In this document: piece by piece, positions 8,879-16,479 of the stretch
Layout: each line of letters begins with the position of its first letter
Numbering within the stretch: position 1 is the stretch's first letter
DNA from: Bacillota bacterium
Lineage (GTDB): Bacteria; Bacillota; Sulfobacillia; JAJZYS01; JAILZS01
DNA: 48,666 bases
Direction of reading: 5' to 3'
Assembly: GCA_023512375.1 (NCBI GenBank)
Contig: JAILZS010000017.1
Coordinates: 1 to 48,666 of the forward strand
Made by a program: the position numbers and the translations under genes
The notes under the pieces: generated by a model
What the model was told of the DNA's origin: nothing
Database searches by the model: none
What the model saw: only the letters and a program-made list of their open reading frames with translations

Positions 8879-10048
8879 CTAGGACGAGCCAGAGGTGTCT
8901 CCTTTAGACCTGTGCGACAACGCGTTCGCGACCAGCGACTTAACCGATAAGACACCGGCATGCTCCCAGAGCATCCTGCCCTGAGGGGAAACAAGGGCTA
9001 TGGTCGGAAGCTCCGTCACCCCGAACCGGTCGAATACGGCGCCGCTGTTGTCGAGGGCAACCGGGTAGTCGATCTTGTGGGATACGAGATACGAACGGAC
9101 GTATGCCGTGGATGGCTCCGTCAGCCTGAGGTCGACGGCGACGAGCGGCGGCAAGCTTGGATCGGCCTGCTGATGCCGGACGTAGGCCTGGAGTGTCGGG
9201 ATCTCCTCCTGGCACGCGTGACACCAGGTGGCGAAAAAGTCGACCAGGGTCGCCTTGCCCCCGGGGACCGCCACCCGCGTGGAACTCCCGTTCAGGAGAC
9301 CGCCCAGATGAAACGCCACATTCTGGAGCGGCGTATTGCTCGGATGCGCGTTGACAAGGTTGGTGTAGGGATCGGGTAGGCGAGCCGGGGTCTGTAGCGA
9401 CCGTGAGACGTACTCCGCGAGGACGTACGCTTGGTCGGGGATGTTGCGCCGGACCCCACTGTTGAGGAAGACCCGAACCTCTCGCCCACGCGGGTCGATG
9501 ACATAGATAGCCGGGGTGTGGGTCACCTGCCCGCGAATCGCTCGCGCCTCGATGGCGTACGCGTGCCAGATCGGCCGAAGCTGCGCCACCGTTCCGGTGA
9601 GAAAGAGCCACTTGTGCAACATGCCATGTTGGATCGACCACTGACGAACGTCGGTGACAGATGTGGCGATCGGGTTCGAGTTGACGGCTACCAGTTGAAC
9701 CCGGCCGGCGGATGGTCCCAGAAGGCGCATCGCATCTAGCAGGGTCTGGACGGTGAGCGGGCACACCGTTGTGCAGCGGCTATCGATGAAGGACAGAACC
9801 ACCGTCTTGCCACGCAGGCTGCTCAGGGTGATCTGGCGGCCGAATTGATCCCATAGCCGGAAGTTCGGTGCGGCGCGGTTGCCGAGCGGAGCCCCCGGGT
9901 CGACTCCGTACCGGGCCCCGGGCACCTTGATCGGACCCTGGCCAAGAATGTCGGTGCTGTGCCATAGACCGATGCCGGCTGTAACGGTCAGCGTGAGGGC
10001 AACGGCACCAAGGGCCCATCGGCGATCCCACCTTGGCCCTGGATTCAC
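8879..10048 (-). CDS. SCO1/SenC-TlpA two-domain fusion protein
   Basis: 389 residues with a GTG start preceded by GGGGGAG five bases away. An N-terminal membrane anchor (about 12-30) leads to a SCO1/SenC domain with its copper-binding CTTVC (C92 and C96) and the distant His in THTPAIYVID (H177). After a linker comes a second, TlpA/ResA-type thioredoxin domain with WCHAC (C276 and C279) and the VTELPTIALVSPQG cis-proline region. SCO proteins deliver copper to the CuA centre of cytochrome oxidase, and TlpA-type partners reduce the copper-site cysteines, so the fusion would combine metallochaperone and reductant in one chain. It is the first gene of the minus-strand cluster leading to ccmF. Domain identities are secure; the joint function is inferred. 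Confidence 0.88.
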   Translation of the reverse strand: MNPGPRWDRRWALGAVALTLTVTAGIGLWHSTDILGQGPIKVPGARYGVDPGAPLGNRAAPNFRLWDQFGRQITLSSLRGKTVVLSFIDSRCTTVCPLTVQTLLDAMRLLGPSAGRVQLVAVNSNPIATSVTDVRQWSIQHGMLHKWLFLTGTVAQLRPIWHAYAIEARAIRGQVTHTPAIYVIDPRGREVRVFLNSGVRRNIPDQAYVLAEYVSRSLQTPARLPDPYTNLVNAHPSNTPLQNVAFHLGGLLNGSSTRVAVPGGKATLVDFFATWCHACQEEIPTLQAYVRHQQADPSLPPLVAVDLRLTEPSTAYVRSYLVSHKIDYPVALDNSGAVFDRFGVTELPTIALVSPQGRMLWEHAGVLSVKSLVANALSHRSKGDTSGSS

Positions 10049-11132: not shown

Positions 11133-11282
11133 TCAGCTGTTGCGCTTCAGGTACCGTTCCGGATCGTTCAGGAAGCGATCCTTGCAGCCCTGCGCGCAGA
11201 AGTAGTACGTCTGTCCGTCGTGCTCGGCCTTGATGGCCTTGGTCTCGTCCACGTTCATCTGGCACACTGGATCCTTCGCCAT
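11133..11282 (-). CDS. Small YHS-domain metal-binding protein
   Basis: 49-residue protein made of a single YHS domain. It starts MAKDPVCQMNV (DPVC motif), continues with a DGQTYYFCAQGCKDRF segment (FC-X3-C motif) and ends with DPERYL. YHS domains bind copper or other soft metals through these cysteines and are found in copper-transporting ATPases and mercury or copper resistance loci. The ATG at 11282 has AGGAGG nine bases upstream. It is the third gene of the csoR-copA operon (63 bases after copA) and closely resembles the two YHS repeats at the CopA C-terminus, so it may have arisen from them. A copper-chaperone role is inferred. It is short enough to be missed by automatic gene finding. 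Confidence 0.85.
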   Translation of the reverse strand: MAKDPVCQMNVDETKAIKAEHDGQTYYFCAQGCKDRFLNDPERYLKRNS

Positions 11283-11344
11283 GGGGGTTCCTCCTTAGAG
11301 GTGTGTTCGTGGGCGCCGGACGACTGCCACGTCCGGCGCGGATC

Positions 11345-14194
11345 CTACGTCATCGTCCGGCCCGCGGCGTTCGTGAGATACTGCTCGGGATGCGCCTCGA
11401 AGTCCTCGCGGCAGGCGGTGTTGCAGAAGAAATAGGTGTGACCCTGGTAGTCCAGTCGGTCGGCTTCCTGGCCGATCGTGACGGTCATTCCGCATACCGG
11501 ATCGACCGCGGTCACATACCGTGCCGGGTCCGCATCGAACTCCTCCTTGCAGGCCAGGTTGCAGAACAGGTAGCGAACGCCGTCGTACGTCGATGAACCC
11601 GCTTCGCTGCCTGCCGTTACCCGCATGCCGCAGACGGGATCCACGGACTCGTAGGACTTGGGTTCCCCAGCGTCCTCTCCCTCCGGCCGTTGCCCACCGC
11701 CACCGTCCTGCGCGACCTCGGACCTCGCCTCCTCCTCCGCCCACCGCTCCTCGGTCCGCGTCAGGCCGCGCATCGGGTTGTAGCGGTTGAGCAGCGCCGA
11801 GTTGGTCGTCACGAACACGGACGAGAAGGCCATGGCCGCCCCTGAAAGGACAGGCATGAGGAGGTTGAGCCCCGCGACAGGGATGAGCACCACGTTGTAG
11901 ATGAACGCCCAGAACAGGTTCTGGCGGATCTTGCCGAGGGTCGCCTTGCTGAGCCTGAGGGCGGCCGGCAGCCCCCGCAGATCGCCGCTCATCAGCGTGA
12001 TGCCCGATGCCGCGATGGCCACGTCGGTACCCGTCCCGATCGCCACGCCGACGTCCGCCGTGGCGAGTGCCGGGGCATCGTTGATGCCGTCGCCGGTCAT
12101 GGCCACGACATGGCCTTCCTGGCGCAGGCGGGCGACGACCGTCGCCTTGTCCGCCGGCAGCACCTCGGCGATGACGCGCTCGCGCGAGATTCCCACCTGG
12201 TCGGCCACCGCCTCGGCCACGCGGCGGCTGTCGCCGGTCAGGAGATAGACGGCGTACCCAGCAGCCGTCAGGGCGTCGATCGCTTCTTGCGCGGTGTCCT
12301 TGACGGTGTCTGCGACGGCGATCACGCCCGCCGCCCGGCCGTCGACCGCGACGTATAGGGGCGTCTTGCCTGCCTCCTCCAGGGCGCGGCCCGCCGCCTC
12401 CAGCGCGGCGCCGTCCACGCCGGCCTGGGCGAGAAAGCTCAGGCGCCCGACCAGCACCTCCCCGTTGGGCGTACGCCCGCGCACGCCGCGACCGGGAACC
12501 GCCTCGAAGGCCTCGACCCTCGGCAGCTCCAGCCGGCGCTCCCGCGCTGCGGCCACGACCGCGCGCCCAAGTGGGTGCTCCGAAAACGTCTCCACCGCCG
12601 CGGCCAGGGCGAGGAGCTCGTCCTCGGTCGCTCCAGCCACCGCAAGCACATCCGTGACGGCGGGCCGCCCCCGCGTCACCGTGCCGGTCTTGTCCAGCAC
12701 CACGGTGTCCACGCGCGCCGCCCGCTCCAGATGCTCACCGCCGCGGATCAGGATGCCGCGCCGTGCGCCCACGCCCGTACCCGCAACGAGGGCCGTCGGC
12801 GTCGCCAGCCCAAGGGCGCACGGGCACGCCACCACCAGCACCGCCACTGCAGGCACCAGGGCCGTTCCCACCTGGCCGGTGATGGCAAGCCAGGCGACGA
12901 ACACCACGGCCGCCACGGCGATGACGATGGGTACGAAGATGCTCGAGATGCGGTCGACGAGGTGTTCGACCGGCGCCTTCTCGGCCTGGGCCGCCTCGAC
13001 GATCGACACGATCTGCGCCAGGACGGTATCCCGGCCCACCTTCGTGGCCCGCATGCGCAGCGTGCCGGTCTGGTTGAGGGTCGCTCCCACGACCCCGTCG
13101 CCGGGCCGCTTGGTCACCGGCAACGGCTCGCCGGTGAGCATCGACTCGTCCACGCTGCTCTGGCCGGCGAGGATCACGCCGTCGGTGGGGATGCTCTCGC
13201 CCGGGCGCACTACCAGCTCCATGCCAACCTCGACGTCCTCGATCGGCACGTCGCGCTCGCCCGCCGCAGTGACGGCGTGCGCCAAGCGCGGGCTGAGCCC
13301 CATGAGCTGGCGGATGGCCGAGGACGTGGCTCCCTTGGCGCGCGCCTCCACGAACTTTCCGAGCGATACCAGGGTGAGGACGATGGCGCTCGAGTCGAAG
13401 TAGGTGGCAGCGCCGGTTCCCAACAGGACGGCGGCCGCGCTGTACACGTACGCGGCGCTCGTGCCCAGGGCCACCAGCACCGACATGTTGGCGTTGCGGT
13501 TCTTGAGGTTGTGGTAGGAGTCGACGTAGTACGACCAGCCGACGTACCCCTGGACGATCGTGGCGAGAGCCAGCTGCAGCCACCTGTCGGATAGCACCTG
13601 CACCAGCGTCCCGCGTGCGCCGACGAGGGTCACCACGAGCCACGCGGCGAGGGGGAGGGAGAAGATCGCGCCTAGCCAGAACCGCCGTGCCCACTTCGCG
13701 ATCTCGGCCTCTCGCGCTCGCTGCCCGGCGTCGTGCTGGGGAGCGAGTTCGCGCGTGGCGATGCCCCAGCTTCGAAGCGTGCGCCGCAGGTCGGCCGCCG
13801 ACACGCTGTCCGGCAGGTAGGTTACCGCCAGGGCGTTGGCCGTCCCGTCGTAGCGCACCCTGACCACACCCGCGATGGCGCCGACGCGACCCAGGAGGGA
13901 ACCTGCATCGGCCGGAGGTTCCTCCAGCTCGAGGCGGGTGGCATCGGTCACGGCGCGGTAACCGATGTCCTGGATCTTGCCGAGGATTCCTTCCAGGTCC
14001 GCCCGCCCCGGGTCGAGCCGCACCACGGCCTTCTCGGTCCCGAAGTTGACGCTGGCCGCTTCGACGCCCTCCATGCCCCTGACGCCACGTTCGATGCGCA
14101 GGGCGCACGAGGCGCAGGTCATGCCGGCGATGCCGATCTGGACTTCCAGCGCCCCAGGCTGGGTCTTGCTGTCCGCTTCCTTGCGCGTTGCCAT
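11345..14194 (-). CDS. copA: Copper-exporting P1B-type ATPase with two C-terminal YHS domains
   Basis: ATP-driven copper(I) efflux pump, 949 residues. In order it has an HMA domain with GMTCASC (C27 and C30), a second HMA-like fold lacking its cysteines (about 100-145), paired membrane helices, TGE at 354-356, the CPC metal site at 457-459, the phosphorylation motif DKTGT (D501), [14 protein letters not shown], and the last helices. Two YHS domains then follow in about the last 100 residues, each with DPVCGM and FCN-X2-C, separated by an acidic linker. YHS domains more often sit at the N-terminus of such ATPases. The ATG at 14194 is chosen because the HMA domain follows at the normal distance; its ribosome binding site is only a G run. 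It lies 49 bases after csoR, and copper induction through CsoR is expected. Confidence 0.95.
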
Positions 14195-14243
14195 GCAAAC
14201 GGTCCCCCCCGCCGGAATCCCTGCGCGCCGGCCCGCCGGGCAT

Positions 14244-14609
14244 TCAGGCCGGCACGTGCGGTGCAGGCGCGTGACACGTGCACAGCGGTCCGCCGGTGGC
14301 GGCCGGTTTGTCGAGGCTGGCCGGCCCGCCGTGCCCGTTGACGAGGCTCTTCTCATAGCGCAGGGCACCGAGGAGCTCGTCGATGATCTCCTTGCCCATG
14401 CCGCGCCGGATCGCGTCGGAGACGCAGGTCGAAAGGTGGTTGCGTAGGAGGATGAGCTGAATGCCTTCGAGGGCGCCCTGGACGGCCGCCACCTGCTTCA
14501 TGAGATCGACGCAGTACACGTCCTGTTCGACCATGCGCTCCACGCTCTCCAGATGGCCGACGGCGCTCCTCAGACGGAGAAGCGTTTCGCGTTTCAGGTC
14601 GGGGAGCAT
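14244..14609 (-). CDS. csoR: CsoR-family copper-sensing repressor
   Basis: Cytoplasmic, all-helical repressor of 121 residues that should release DNA when it binds Cu(I). The CsoR/DUF156 pattern is clear: [19 protein letters not shown] followed by YC (first Cys ligand), a second helix with AAVQGAL, and the [10 protein letters not shown] segment supplying the His and second Cys ligands. The tail is longer than usual and ends in a Cys/His-containing segment ([11 protein letters not shown]) that could bind more metal. The ATG at 14609 has AAGGAGG eight bases upstream. It is first in the csoR-copA-YHS operon, with a strong promoter (14653-14681) and a GC-rich operator candidate (14624-14646) just upstream, so autoregulation is likely. 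Confidence 0.93.
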
Positions 14610-14623
14610 CTGTCTGCCTCCTT

Positions 14624-14646
14624 CCACCCCAGGGGGGGTGGGGTCC
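14624..14646 (-). promoter_or_regulatory. Putative CsoR operator
   Basis: The sequence CCACCCCAGGGGGGGTGGGG at 14624-14643, continuing TCC, is a near-palindrome of C and G runs flanked by A/T-containing steps. This is the form described for CsoR-type operators. It lies between the -10 element and the csoR start codon, over the likely transcription start, so a bound repressor would block the promoter of csoR-copA. Identified by pattern only. Confidence 0.6.
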
Positions 14647-14681: not shown

Positions 14682-15032
14682 ACGCGGAGGCGGGCCCACC
14701 AGGCGCCCGGTCACCAACCCCGACTTCCCGGGGGGGCGGGGGAAAGCGCGTGCAAGGTGCTGGTGGAGGCGCGCATGAAGCAGGCCCGCAGGCCCGGGCA
14801 CCGTCTGGGCAGCCAGGCGGTCGGAACGCTCAGGGCGCGGCACCGTTCGGGCGAGTGGGCCAACGCTTGGGTCACCGCGCCTCGCCGGTGCCGTCCGCCC
14901 GCACGTTGCCCGGACCGACCCCGGGCTGCGTGACCCCCCGATGGTGGGGCGCCCCCCCTGGCGAACCGGCGTTGACGTGGGGTGGCTCGACGGTCAACGT
15001 GGTCTGTGTGGTCTCGGGAAGAAGGGGATCTT
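14682..15032. other. Intergenic region, no gene seen
   Basis: About 350 bases between the copper operon promoter and the antitoxin gene. Open frames exist on both strands, but their translations are Arg/Pro/Gly-rich and resemble no protein family. The start chosen for the antitoxin (GTG 15033) is preceded by GAAGGGG. Nothing else was recognised. Confidence 0.5.
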
Positions 15033-15320
15033 GTGGTGCGGAAAGTGGGAATCCGGGAAGCCAAGGCCAGGCTGAGCGAACTCCTCCGCGATGTGCGGCA
15101 GGGCGGGGAGTGGATCCTGACCGAGCGCGGCAAGCCCATCGCGCGCCTCGCGCCCGTGCGTCGAGACGACCTCACCCTGGCCGACCGTGTGCGGCGGCTG
15201 GAAGAACGCGGCTTGGTGGCGCCGCTGGGCCATGAACAGCGCCCCCTTCCCCCGCCTCTGCCCCTCGAGTCCGGTCTTGCCACCCGGTGGCTGGAGGAGG
15301 AGCGCCGGCATGGCCGGTGA
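15033..15320 (+). CDS. Phd/YefM-family antitoxin
   Basis: 95-residue antitoxin and DNA-binding repressor. The N-terminal Phd/YefM fold is recognisable as VGIREAKARLSELLRDVRQG, then WILTERGKPIARLAPV. The remaining hydrophilic C-terminus would wrap the toxin. GTG at 15033 is chosen because GAAGGGG lies five to eleven bases upstream; GTG at 15036 is an alternative. The gene overlaps the PIN toxin by 11 bases, the usual arrangement of VapBC-like pairs with a Phd-type antitoxin. The antitoxin looks intact although the toxin does not. Confidence 0.85.
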   Translation: MVRKVGIREAKARLSELLRDVRQGGEWILTERGKPIARLAPVRRDDLTLADRVRRLEERGLVAPLGHEQRPLPPPLPLESGLATRWLEEERRHGR

Positions 15321-15675
15321 GCGGGCGGTGTATTGGGCCGCCTCGGCGGTCCTCGCACGGCTGTTCCTCGACGAGCACAGCTCGGAGGCGGAGCGTTGGG
15401 CGCAAAGGCCCGCGTACCATTTCCTATCGGGTCTGGCGTATGCGGAGGTTCAGGCCGTCATCGCGCGCGTGAGGCGGGAGCGGCGCCTGGCCGACGTCCT
15501 GGTCGAGGCCGCCCAGGAGGCGGTGCGGACGGGGACGTGGCGGGCGATGTTCGCGTCGGCGCCATGGGGATGGATCGAAGCCCTGGCGCGGCGCCATCCT
15601 CCGCGGGGGGCGGGTCTCTGGCACCTTGCCGTAGCTTGTGCCCTGCGGGAGGAACTGGGCGAGGTCGCTCTCTGA
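15310..15675 (+). CDS. PIN-domain toxin (VapC-like), probably defective
   Basis: 121-residue partner of the Phd antitoxin, a PIN-type ribonuclease by fold. Active PIN domains need about four acidic residues. Here the first (usual YLDTSA) is replaced in VYWAASAVLARLFLDE, the glutamate in LAYAEVQAVIARV remains, and the third (usual GAxD near the LA helix) is replaced in RGAGLWHLAVACAL. The protein stops early at VAL. Just beyond, in another frame, SDQALHQAAR (15671-15700) looks like the missing C-terminal segment with the fourth Asp and ends at a stop at 15722. Loss of a CT dinucleotide in the CTCTCT-like run at about 15668-15673 would explain this. I read it as an inactivated toxin; an RNA-binding remnant is possible. 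Confidence 0.75.
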   Translation: MAGERAVYWAASAVLARLFLDEHSSEAERWAQRPAYHFLSGLAYAEVQAVIARVRRERRLADVLVEAAQEAVRTGTWRAMFASAPWGWIEALARRHPPRGAGLWHLAVACALREELGEVAL

Positions 15676-15988
15676 CCAAGCGCTCCACCAGGCCGCGCGC
15701 GGTGAGGGAGCGGCCGCGACGTAGCGGCTGCCAAGAGACGGCGGCGCCCCCTGCCCGGGTCGGCGATCCAACCCCTGCGGGCGTTTGGGCGGCGAGGCAC
15801 GGTACGGCGTTTGCCAGCCGGTGGAGGCGACGCGTCCCATGGGAGGCGACGGTGAGGGGCGTGGGGGACGGCCGAGGCGAAGGGAGGGGACAGAGCCGGT
15901 GCATGCGACGGACCGCCGCGCGCATCGCCTGGATCGGAATCGGAACGCTACGCCGGTAGGCCGGCGGCTTGCCCGGCGGGGGGAAGAG
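15676..15988. other. Frameshifted PIN tail, then no recognisable gene
   Basis: The first ~50 bases (to the stop at 15722-15724) appear to be the displaced C-terminus of the PIN toxin. The rest is GC-rich sequence in which no gene could be supported. An upstream extension of the nucleotidyltransferase frame to 15785 is open, but its sequence is low-complexity Arg/Gly-rich text without family resemblance. Confidence 0.45.
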
Positions 15989-16294
15989 ATGCTCGCGGCG
16001 GCGCGCGTCCTGGCTGCCGCGCTGCGGCGCCGCGGAGCCACCCGCACTCTCCTGTTCGGCTCCCTGGCGCGAGGGCCGGACGCGGTCGGCCCGACGAGCG
16101 ACGTCGACCTTGTCGTCGTCATGCCGGGTGTCGGGGGAGAGCGCATGCATCGGCGGCTCGTGGATCTTCCTGAGGTGGTCGGGTTTCCCTATGCCCTCGA
16201 CCTGTTCGTCTACACTCCCGAAGAATGGGAGCGTGTGGTGAAGACGGCATTCGTCGAGCGGGAGATCCTGACCCGGGGGGTGGTGCTCACGTGA
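15989..16294 (+). CDS. MNT-type minimal nucleotidyltransferase (antitoxin of an HEPN/MNT pair)
   Basis: 101-residue nucleotidyltransferase of the minimal (MNT) class. The signature is intact: LLFGSLARG followed ten residues later by SDVDLVVV, giving the GS motif and the two metal-binding aspartates, and a third acidic position in YALDLFVYT. In HEPN/MNT toxin-antitoxin pairs this protein neutralises the HEPN ribonuclease, in studied cases by adding AMP to it. The ATG at 15989 follows GGGGGGAAG. Its stop overlaps the start of the HEPN gene (GTGA at 16291-16294). The antitoxin looks intact while its partner is truncated. Confidence 0.85.
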   Translation: MLAAARVLAAALRRRGATRTLLFGSLARGPDAVGPTSDVDLVVVMPGVGGERMHRRLVDLPEVVGFPYALDLFVYTPEEWERVVKTAFVEREILTRGVVLT

Positions 16295-16479
16295 GCGGCG
16301 AGCGGGAGGCGCGGCTGTGGTTCGCGCAGGCACTGGCCGACCTCGACACCGCGAGGGACAACGCGCGTTCCCATCCCGACGCCGCCTGCCTCATGGCCCA
16401 GCAGGCGGCCGAAAAGGCCCTCAAGGCGTTGGAGGCGCCCGGTCCGAACCACGGCCGGTGCCGGCCGCAGGCGCCGTAG
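16291..16479 (+). CDS. HEPN-domain protein, truncated
   Basis: Only 62 residues, against roughly 120-140 for a typical HEPN toxin. The N-terminal half matches HEPN well: REARLWFAQALADLDTARDN, then CLMAQQAAEKALKAL. It then runs into an unrelated tail (APGPNHGRCRPQAP) and a stop at 16479. Downstream, in another frame, VRFRHADSDVALAHIRKTA then SILAWAE (about 16560-16655) resembles the usual HEPN C-terminal part, so a frameshift near 16430-16490 with decay seems likely. The catalytic RX4-6H motif, normally in the second half, is not readable. The GTG start overlaps the MNT stop. Probably inactive. Confidence 0.7.
   Translation: MSGEREARLWFAQALADLDTARDNARSHPDAACLMAQQAAEKALKALEAPGPNHGRCRPQAP

Follow-up and report, generated by a model that had tools for sequence, protein, structure and literature searches.

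Tandem YHS domains at the C-terminus of a CopA copper pump and a free single-domain YHS protein in a CsoR-type operon of a Bacillota genome

Organisation of the operon

The window, that is the whole stretch of 48,666 nucleotides that was analysed, carries three genes on the minus strand in the order csoR, copA and a gene for a small free YHS protein (mini-YHS), with gaps of 49 bp and 62 bp between them. The following features were recognised:

14624..14641, minus strand: CsoR-operator-like perfect palindrome, CCACCCC-N4-GGGGTGG, directly 5' of csoR
14244..14609, minus strand: csoR, predicted copper-sensing repressor, 121 aa (PF02583, 1.9e-22, 80 bits)
11345..14194, minus strand: copA, 949 aa, predicted P1B-1 ATPase for Cu(I) export, two YHS in tandem at the C-terminus (TIGR01511, motifs)
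13949..14149, minus strand: HMA1 with GMTCASC, CopA residues 16-82 (PF00403, 8.6e-15; AlphaFold2 fold)
13748..13945, minus strand: HMA2-like, cysteine-free ferredoxin fold, residues 84-149 (AlphaFold2, pLDDT 82-89)
11648..11779, minus strand: acidic linker, probably disordered, from the last membrane helix to the YHS tail (pLDDT <50, residues 825-864)
11510..11647, minus strand: tail YHS1, residues 850-895, ligands D852, C855, C878 and C882 (PF04945; AlphaFold2)
11372..11509, minus strand: tail YHS2, residues 896-941, ligands D898, C901, C924 and C928 (PF04945; AlphaFold2)
11133..11282, minus strand: mini-YHS, a free protein of 49 aa with a single YHS domain (PF04945, 4.9e-18, 65 bits)

Besides its PF02583 match, the product of csoR has the ligands of the CsoR family, a Cys and His-x3-Cys (YC...HLSTC), and these are also present in its relatives. 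The palindrome 5' of the gene is the only exact match to this pattern in the whole window. Palindromes of a C-tract and a G-tract also precede csoR in the related clusters, with one exception (L192), and in two of them (L188 and L190) the palindrome lies between TTGACC and TATGAT/TATTAT boxes, filling the spacing of the hexamers. Known CsoR operators are G-rich, and from this and its position the palindrome at 14624..14641 is a candidate CsoR operator. A search of the operon region for Rfam families and for promoter or terminator consensus sequences found none. The three genes most likely form a CsoR-controlled operon for copper detoxification and export. The first-pass annotation had called it a copper operon with two YHS domains at the CopA C-terminus and a 49-residue YHS gene behind it; the CsoR and CopA family matches, the coordinates and Pfam all agree with that description. 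It named neither csoR nor the second, decayed copA that the genome carries on another contig.

Several neighbouring genes of the window should be mentioned. Downstream of the operon (8879-10048, minus strand) a SCO1/SenC domain and a thioredoxin/redoxin-like domain form a fusion, and a TlpA-like gene and ccmF come next. These are genes of cytochrome maturation and copper chaperones. On the plus strand there is a match to the Phd/YefM antitoxins with an adjoining open reading frame that looks PIN-toxin-like by eye and has no Pfam match (14982-15675), and a nucleotidyltransferase and HEPN pair in which the match to HEPN is incomplete, possibly with a frameshift (15785-16479).

The copper pump and its N-terminal domains

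CopA scored 556 bits against TIGR01511 (cut-off 397). It has CPC at residue 457 in TM4, DKTGT at 501, YNVVLIP at 766 (YN(X4)P in TM5) and MAFSS at 788 (MxxSS in TM6), with further P1B-1 motifs at residues 538 and 701. Judged by its sequence, the protein has lost none of the signatures that mark P1B-1 ATPases for Cu(I) export.

At the N-terminus Pfam recognised one HMA domain only, the one with CASC. A second one became visible in the AlphaFold2 model, where residues 84-149 adopt the beta-alpha-beta-beta-alpha-beta fold and contain no cysteine, which upholds the earlier statement that the second HMA has lost its cysteines. The idea attached to it, that metal loading has moved to the other end of the pump, is weakened. 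HMA2 lacks CxxC throughout the clade of tailed CopAs, but it also lacks cysteines in CopAs without a tail, namely in one member of the same clade (G105) and in at least three other untailed lineages (G017, G010 and G045). The loss is therefore not tied to the tail, and we rejected it as a consequence of the YHS domains. Moreover, HMA1 has kept its CxxC in the tail clade wherever the N-terminus could be seen.

The C-terminal YHS tail

Both YHS modules of CopA follow the last membrane helix, and none precedes the membrane domain. Pfam assigned two YHS stretches to residues 850-941 (PF04945, 1.5e-24, 86 bits; cut-off 30.3 bits). In the AlphaFold2 model of the tandem tail the mean pLDDT was 87.7, with 83-97 over the block of model residues 1-90. 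Foldseek found no more than weak similarity, to L24e and to multicomponent monooxygenases of bacteria. Values of dN/dS between relatives, for some of which dS is near saturation, were 0.13-0.26 for the tail, 0.07-0.15 for the pump core, 0.11-0.40 for the linker and 0.07-0.16 for mini-YHS. The tail modules and mini-YHS are under purifying selection (0.07-0.26 overall) and are therefore not chance open reading frames.

Each module presents one Asp and three Cys, a ligand set (D-C-C-C) that was kept in 92 of the 93 YHS modules scored, the exception being a pseudogene. One might argue that these modules bind another metal such as Zn or Fe, or serve only structural purposes or protein contacts, since the YHS domain of toluene-4-hydroxylase is metal-free in the crystal and Cd is bound to L24e in the crystallised ribosome (PMC4626032). 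The strict csoR-copA context, the ligand set unbroken outside the pseudogene and the copper-specific response conferred on an adenylyl cyclase of M. phlei by its C-terminal YHS domain (PMC4626032) make this explanation very improbable. Linder pointed out that copper binding by YHS domains in ATPases has not been shown (PMC4626032).

Relationship of the three YHS modules

The three modules had been described as near-identical and as the result of a duplication. The first part of this was wrong, as the two tail modules share 57% identity and tail and mini-YHS 42%. In a tree of 93 YHS modules, which has few columns and leaves most forks unresolved, most tail modules came together and mini-YHS fell with the free YHS proteins of its relatives. 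A clade of the three window modules was rejected by the AU test (p-AU 0.002), whereas all tails as one clade were accepted (p-AU 0.87). The module phylogeny thus excludes the three as recent duplicates, and the duplication claim survives for the tail alone, whose two modules look like old duplicates within the gene. Mini-YHS belongs to a lineage of its own and was not recently copied from the tail, because the three-module clade was rejected, because it groups with free YHS proteins and because free YHS genes also stand beside CopAs without a tail.

Distribution of C-terminal YHS domains

Of the 154 genomes examined in the class, 12 from five families encode a CopA with a C-terminal tail of one to three YHS modules (G000, the genome of the window, and G001, G084, G097, G102, G103, with two, G107, G108, G109, G125, G126 and G131), so the architecture is not unique to the window's genome. 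The tailed CopAs form one clade of 13 with support of 100/100; with G105 there are 14, again at 100/100. Since the CopA of G105 lies inside the clade and has no tail, the tail was either lost there or gained twice, and in this genome it is dispensable. The CopA of the window is sister to that of G084, a member of another order, and not to that of G001, a member of its own order. This sisterhood suggests horizontal transfer.

Elsewhere the YHS-fused pumps that were seen are nearly all N-terminal. A sample of the phylum (399 genomes) gave a tail match in the window's genome only; the tandem YHS of G154 and G446, elsewhere in the phylum, proved to be N-terminal. The best 80 loci among 84,980 named species genomes, scanned with patterns from three sequences whose reach is limited, comprised 32 distinct YHS-fused pumps, 31 of them N-terminal and one C-terminal. 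This bears out the view that YHS domains are more often N-terminal in such pumps. The single C-terminal case (JAJZYS010000069.1, a Bacillota MAG) has a copA locus that agrees with that of G001 in coordinates, length and domain positions. Because the patterns missed known members of the clade, C-terminal YHS domains may occur in other phyla. We also considered a mobile plasmid origin and rejected it; of 133 plasmid records with a tandem-YHS match, the two inspected, from Rhizobium and Thioclava, were N-terminal YHS pumps. The 31 N-terminal pumps differ from the tailed ones in a further respect. The CxxC of HMA is absent from 29 of them (CPMHP is present in 23), so that an N-terminal YHS usually replaces HMA, whereas HMA and YHS coexist in the C-terminal clade. 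We found no published description of a copper pump with C-terminal YHS in the literature searched, which was short on subscription journals. By this survey of CopA architectures the C-terminal arrangement is rare, although five families of one class have conserved it.

Free YHS proteins and CopZ

Mini-YHS has an AAGGAGG Shine-Dalgarno sequence and occupies the place in the operon where copZ is often found. It is a YHS protein and does not have the free HMA fold with GMxCxxC of CopZ. In the tail clade, 11 genomes allowed a check of the position behind copA, and 9 of them have mini-YHS there; none was seen beside the tailed copA of G102 and G103. Coordinates show that free YHS genes also adjoin untailed CopAs in the class, e.g. 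in G003, G007, G009, G012 and G017.

These observations bear on a relay of the kind suggested in the first-pass annotation, in which the free YHS protein hands copper to the tail YHS, or takes it from there, and the tail passes it on to the membrane entry site. Mini-YHS and tail are encoded in one operon with the same type of ligands, and circumstantially the lack of CopZ in 7 of 11 tail-clade genomes fits as well. Nevertheless, their modules are old separate lineages, free YHS genes beside untailed CopAs indicate that a free YHS needs no tail to act, HMA1 retains its CxxC, and G102 and G103 have tails with no mini-YHS seen nearby. The relay therefore appears doubtful to us.

The CopZ count covers 11 genomes of the tail clade, G126 being left out. 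A CopZ-like free HMA protein was not seen in seven of them (G000, G097, G102, G103, G107, G108 and G131) and was present in four (G001, G084, G109 and G125). The free HMA proteins of the window's genome lie beside MerA-like genes (two) or a Zn/Cd-type ATPase (one), and none is CopZ-like. Incidentally, this genome contains two near-identical pairs of a MerA-like and an HMA gene on different contigs (L208 and L209; C103 and C43). Untailed controls were mixed; G003, G005, G007 and G049 also lack a CopZ-like HMA, and they have free YHS genes. The association of tail and free YHS with the absence of CopZ is suggestive only, and the four genomes with a CopZ-like protein mean that YHS has not replaced CopZ throughout. 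That copper handling has been rebuilt on YHS, with the free protein replacing CopZ and the C-terminal array taking over sensing or loading from HMA, seems unlikely to us.

A second copA on another contig of the window's genome (L017, contig C82, 7013-8453) has decayed through large internal deletions, frameshifts and a TAG. It has retained its YHS tail, and the mini-YHS gene behind it is intact and has a good ribosome site. At one locus of another genome (L206, G097:C48) csoR and mini-YHS are intact and copA is broken. Intact mini-YHS genes beside decayed copA in two genomes speak for a passive role, in which tail and mini-YHS would simply provide copper sites in the cytosol in the manner of metallothionein and leave the pump unregulated, and the variation from one to three tail modules is what capacity would predict. 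A soluble protein would buffer equally well, however, and the tail is covalently fixed to the pump at one conserved place. We rate such a passive buffer as rather improbable, a shade below the relay.

A possible role for the tail and the free YHS protein

The explanation that we favour over the relay and the passive buffer, giving it roughly even chances, is that the tail is a copper sensor and collector for the pump and the free YHS protein a CopZ-like carrier or buffer. CopA would pump Cu(I) out of the cytosol under the control of CsoR, and its clade would have gained, once, a C-terminal array in which a flexible acidic linker carries one to three YHS modules, each with a site of one Asp and three Cys. 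The array would most likely serve both as a sensor of copper occupancy and as a local collector. Without copper it would hold the pump back; with copper bound it would relieve an inhibitory contact or raise the local copper concentration near the entry platform. The 49-residue protein, made together with the pump, would carry or buffer Cu(I) in solution, as CopZ does elsewhere. Copper binding, regulation and hand-over by the YHS modules are what we infer here. Two published analogies guide this reading: the C-terminal YHS to which the M. phlei adenylyl cyclase owes its response to copper (PMC4626032), and the metal-binding domain of LpCopA, proposed to sense copper in autoinhibition (PMC11970713).

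Support for a sensing and collecting tail with a free carrier comes from the P1B-1 signatures, CsoR with its palindrome, the conservation of the cluster in five families, the single 100/100 clade, the D-C-C-C set, purifying selection, the confident fold of the modules as opposed to the linker, and the lack of a CopZ-like protein in several tail-clade genomes. Against it stand the untailed G105, the four genomes with a CopZ-like protein and the tails of G102 and G103 without mini-YHS.

Comparison with known systems

Whether the terminal metal-binding domains of copper pumps act in delivery or in regulation is debated (PMC11970713). The tail clade offers a natural comparison, having its array at the opposite end, one to three modules, an untailed member (G105) and a matching free YHS, and the layout of tail and free YHS points to a possible mode of copper sensing or hand-over.

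Tandem YHS domains are known from the N-terminus of copper pumps, the rhizobial group VII Cu-ATPases having two TRASH/YHS domains (PMC5552934). The group VII type, seen here as the N-terminal YHS pumps, resembles CopA of the window in combining a P1B-1 pump with one to three YHS domains of the same ligand set. It differs in that its YHS is N-terminal and usually replaces HMA, whereas the pump of the window has C-terminal YHS, has kept HMA and belongs to another part of the pump tree. CsoR-CopA(-CopZ) operons share CsoR, an operator-like palindrome and a CopA with CPC, but the operon described here has mini-YHS in place of copZ and a C-terminal YHS array. The adenylyl cyclase of M. phlei likewise has a C-terminal YHS on a short linker as a proposed copper sensor, on a cyclase instead of a pump (PMC4626032). 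LpCopA (PMC11970713) and AfCopA, the former with a model of sensing and autoinhibition, also carry a terminal metal-binding domain, but it is of the HMA or CXXC type, and in the CopA of the window it is YHS.
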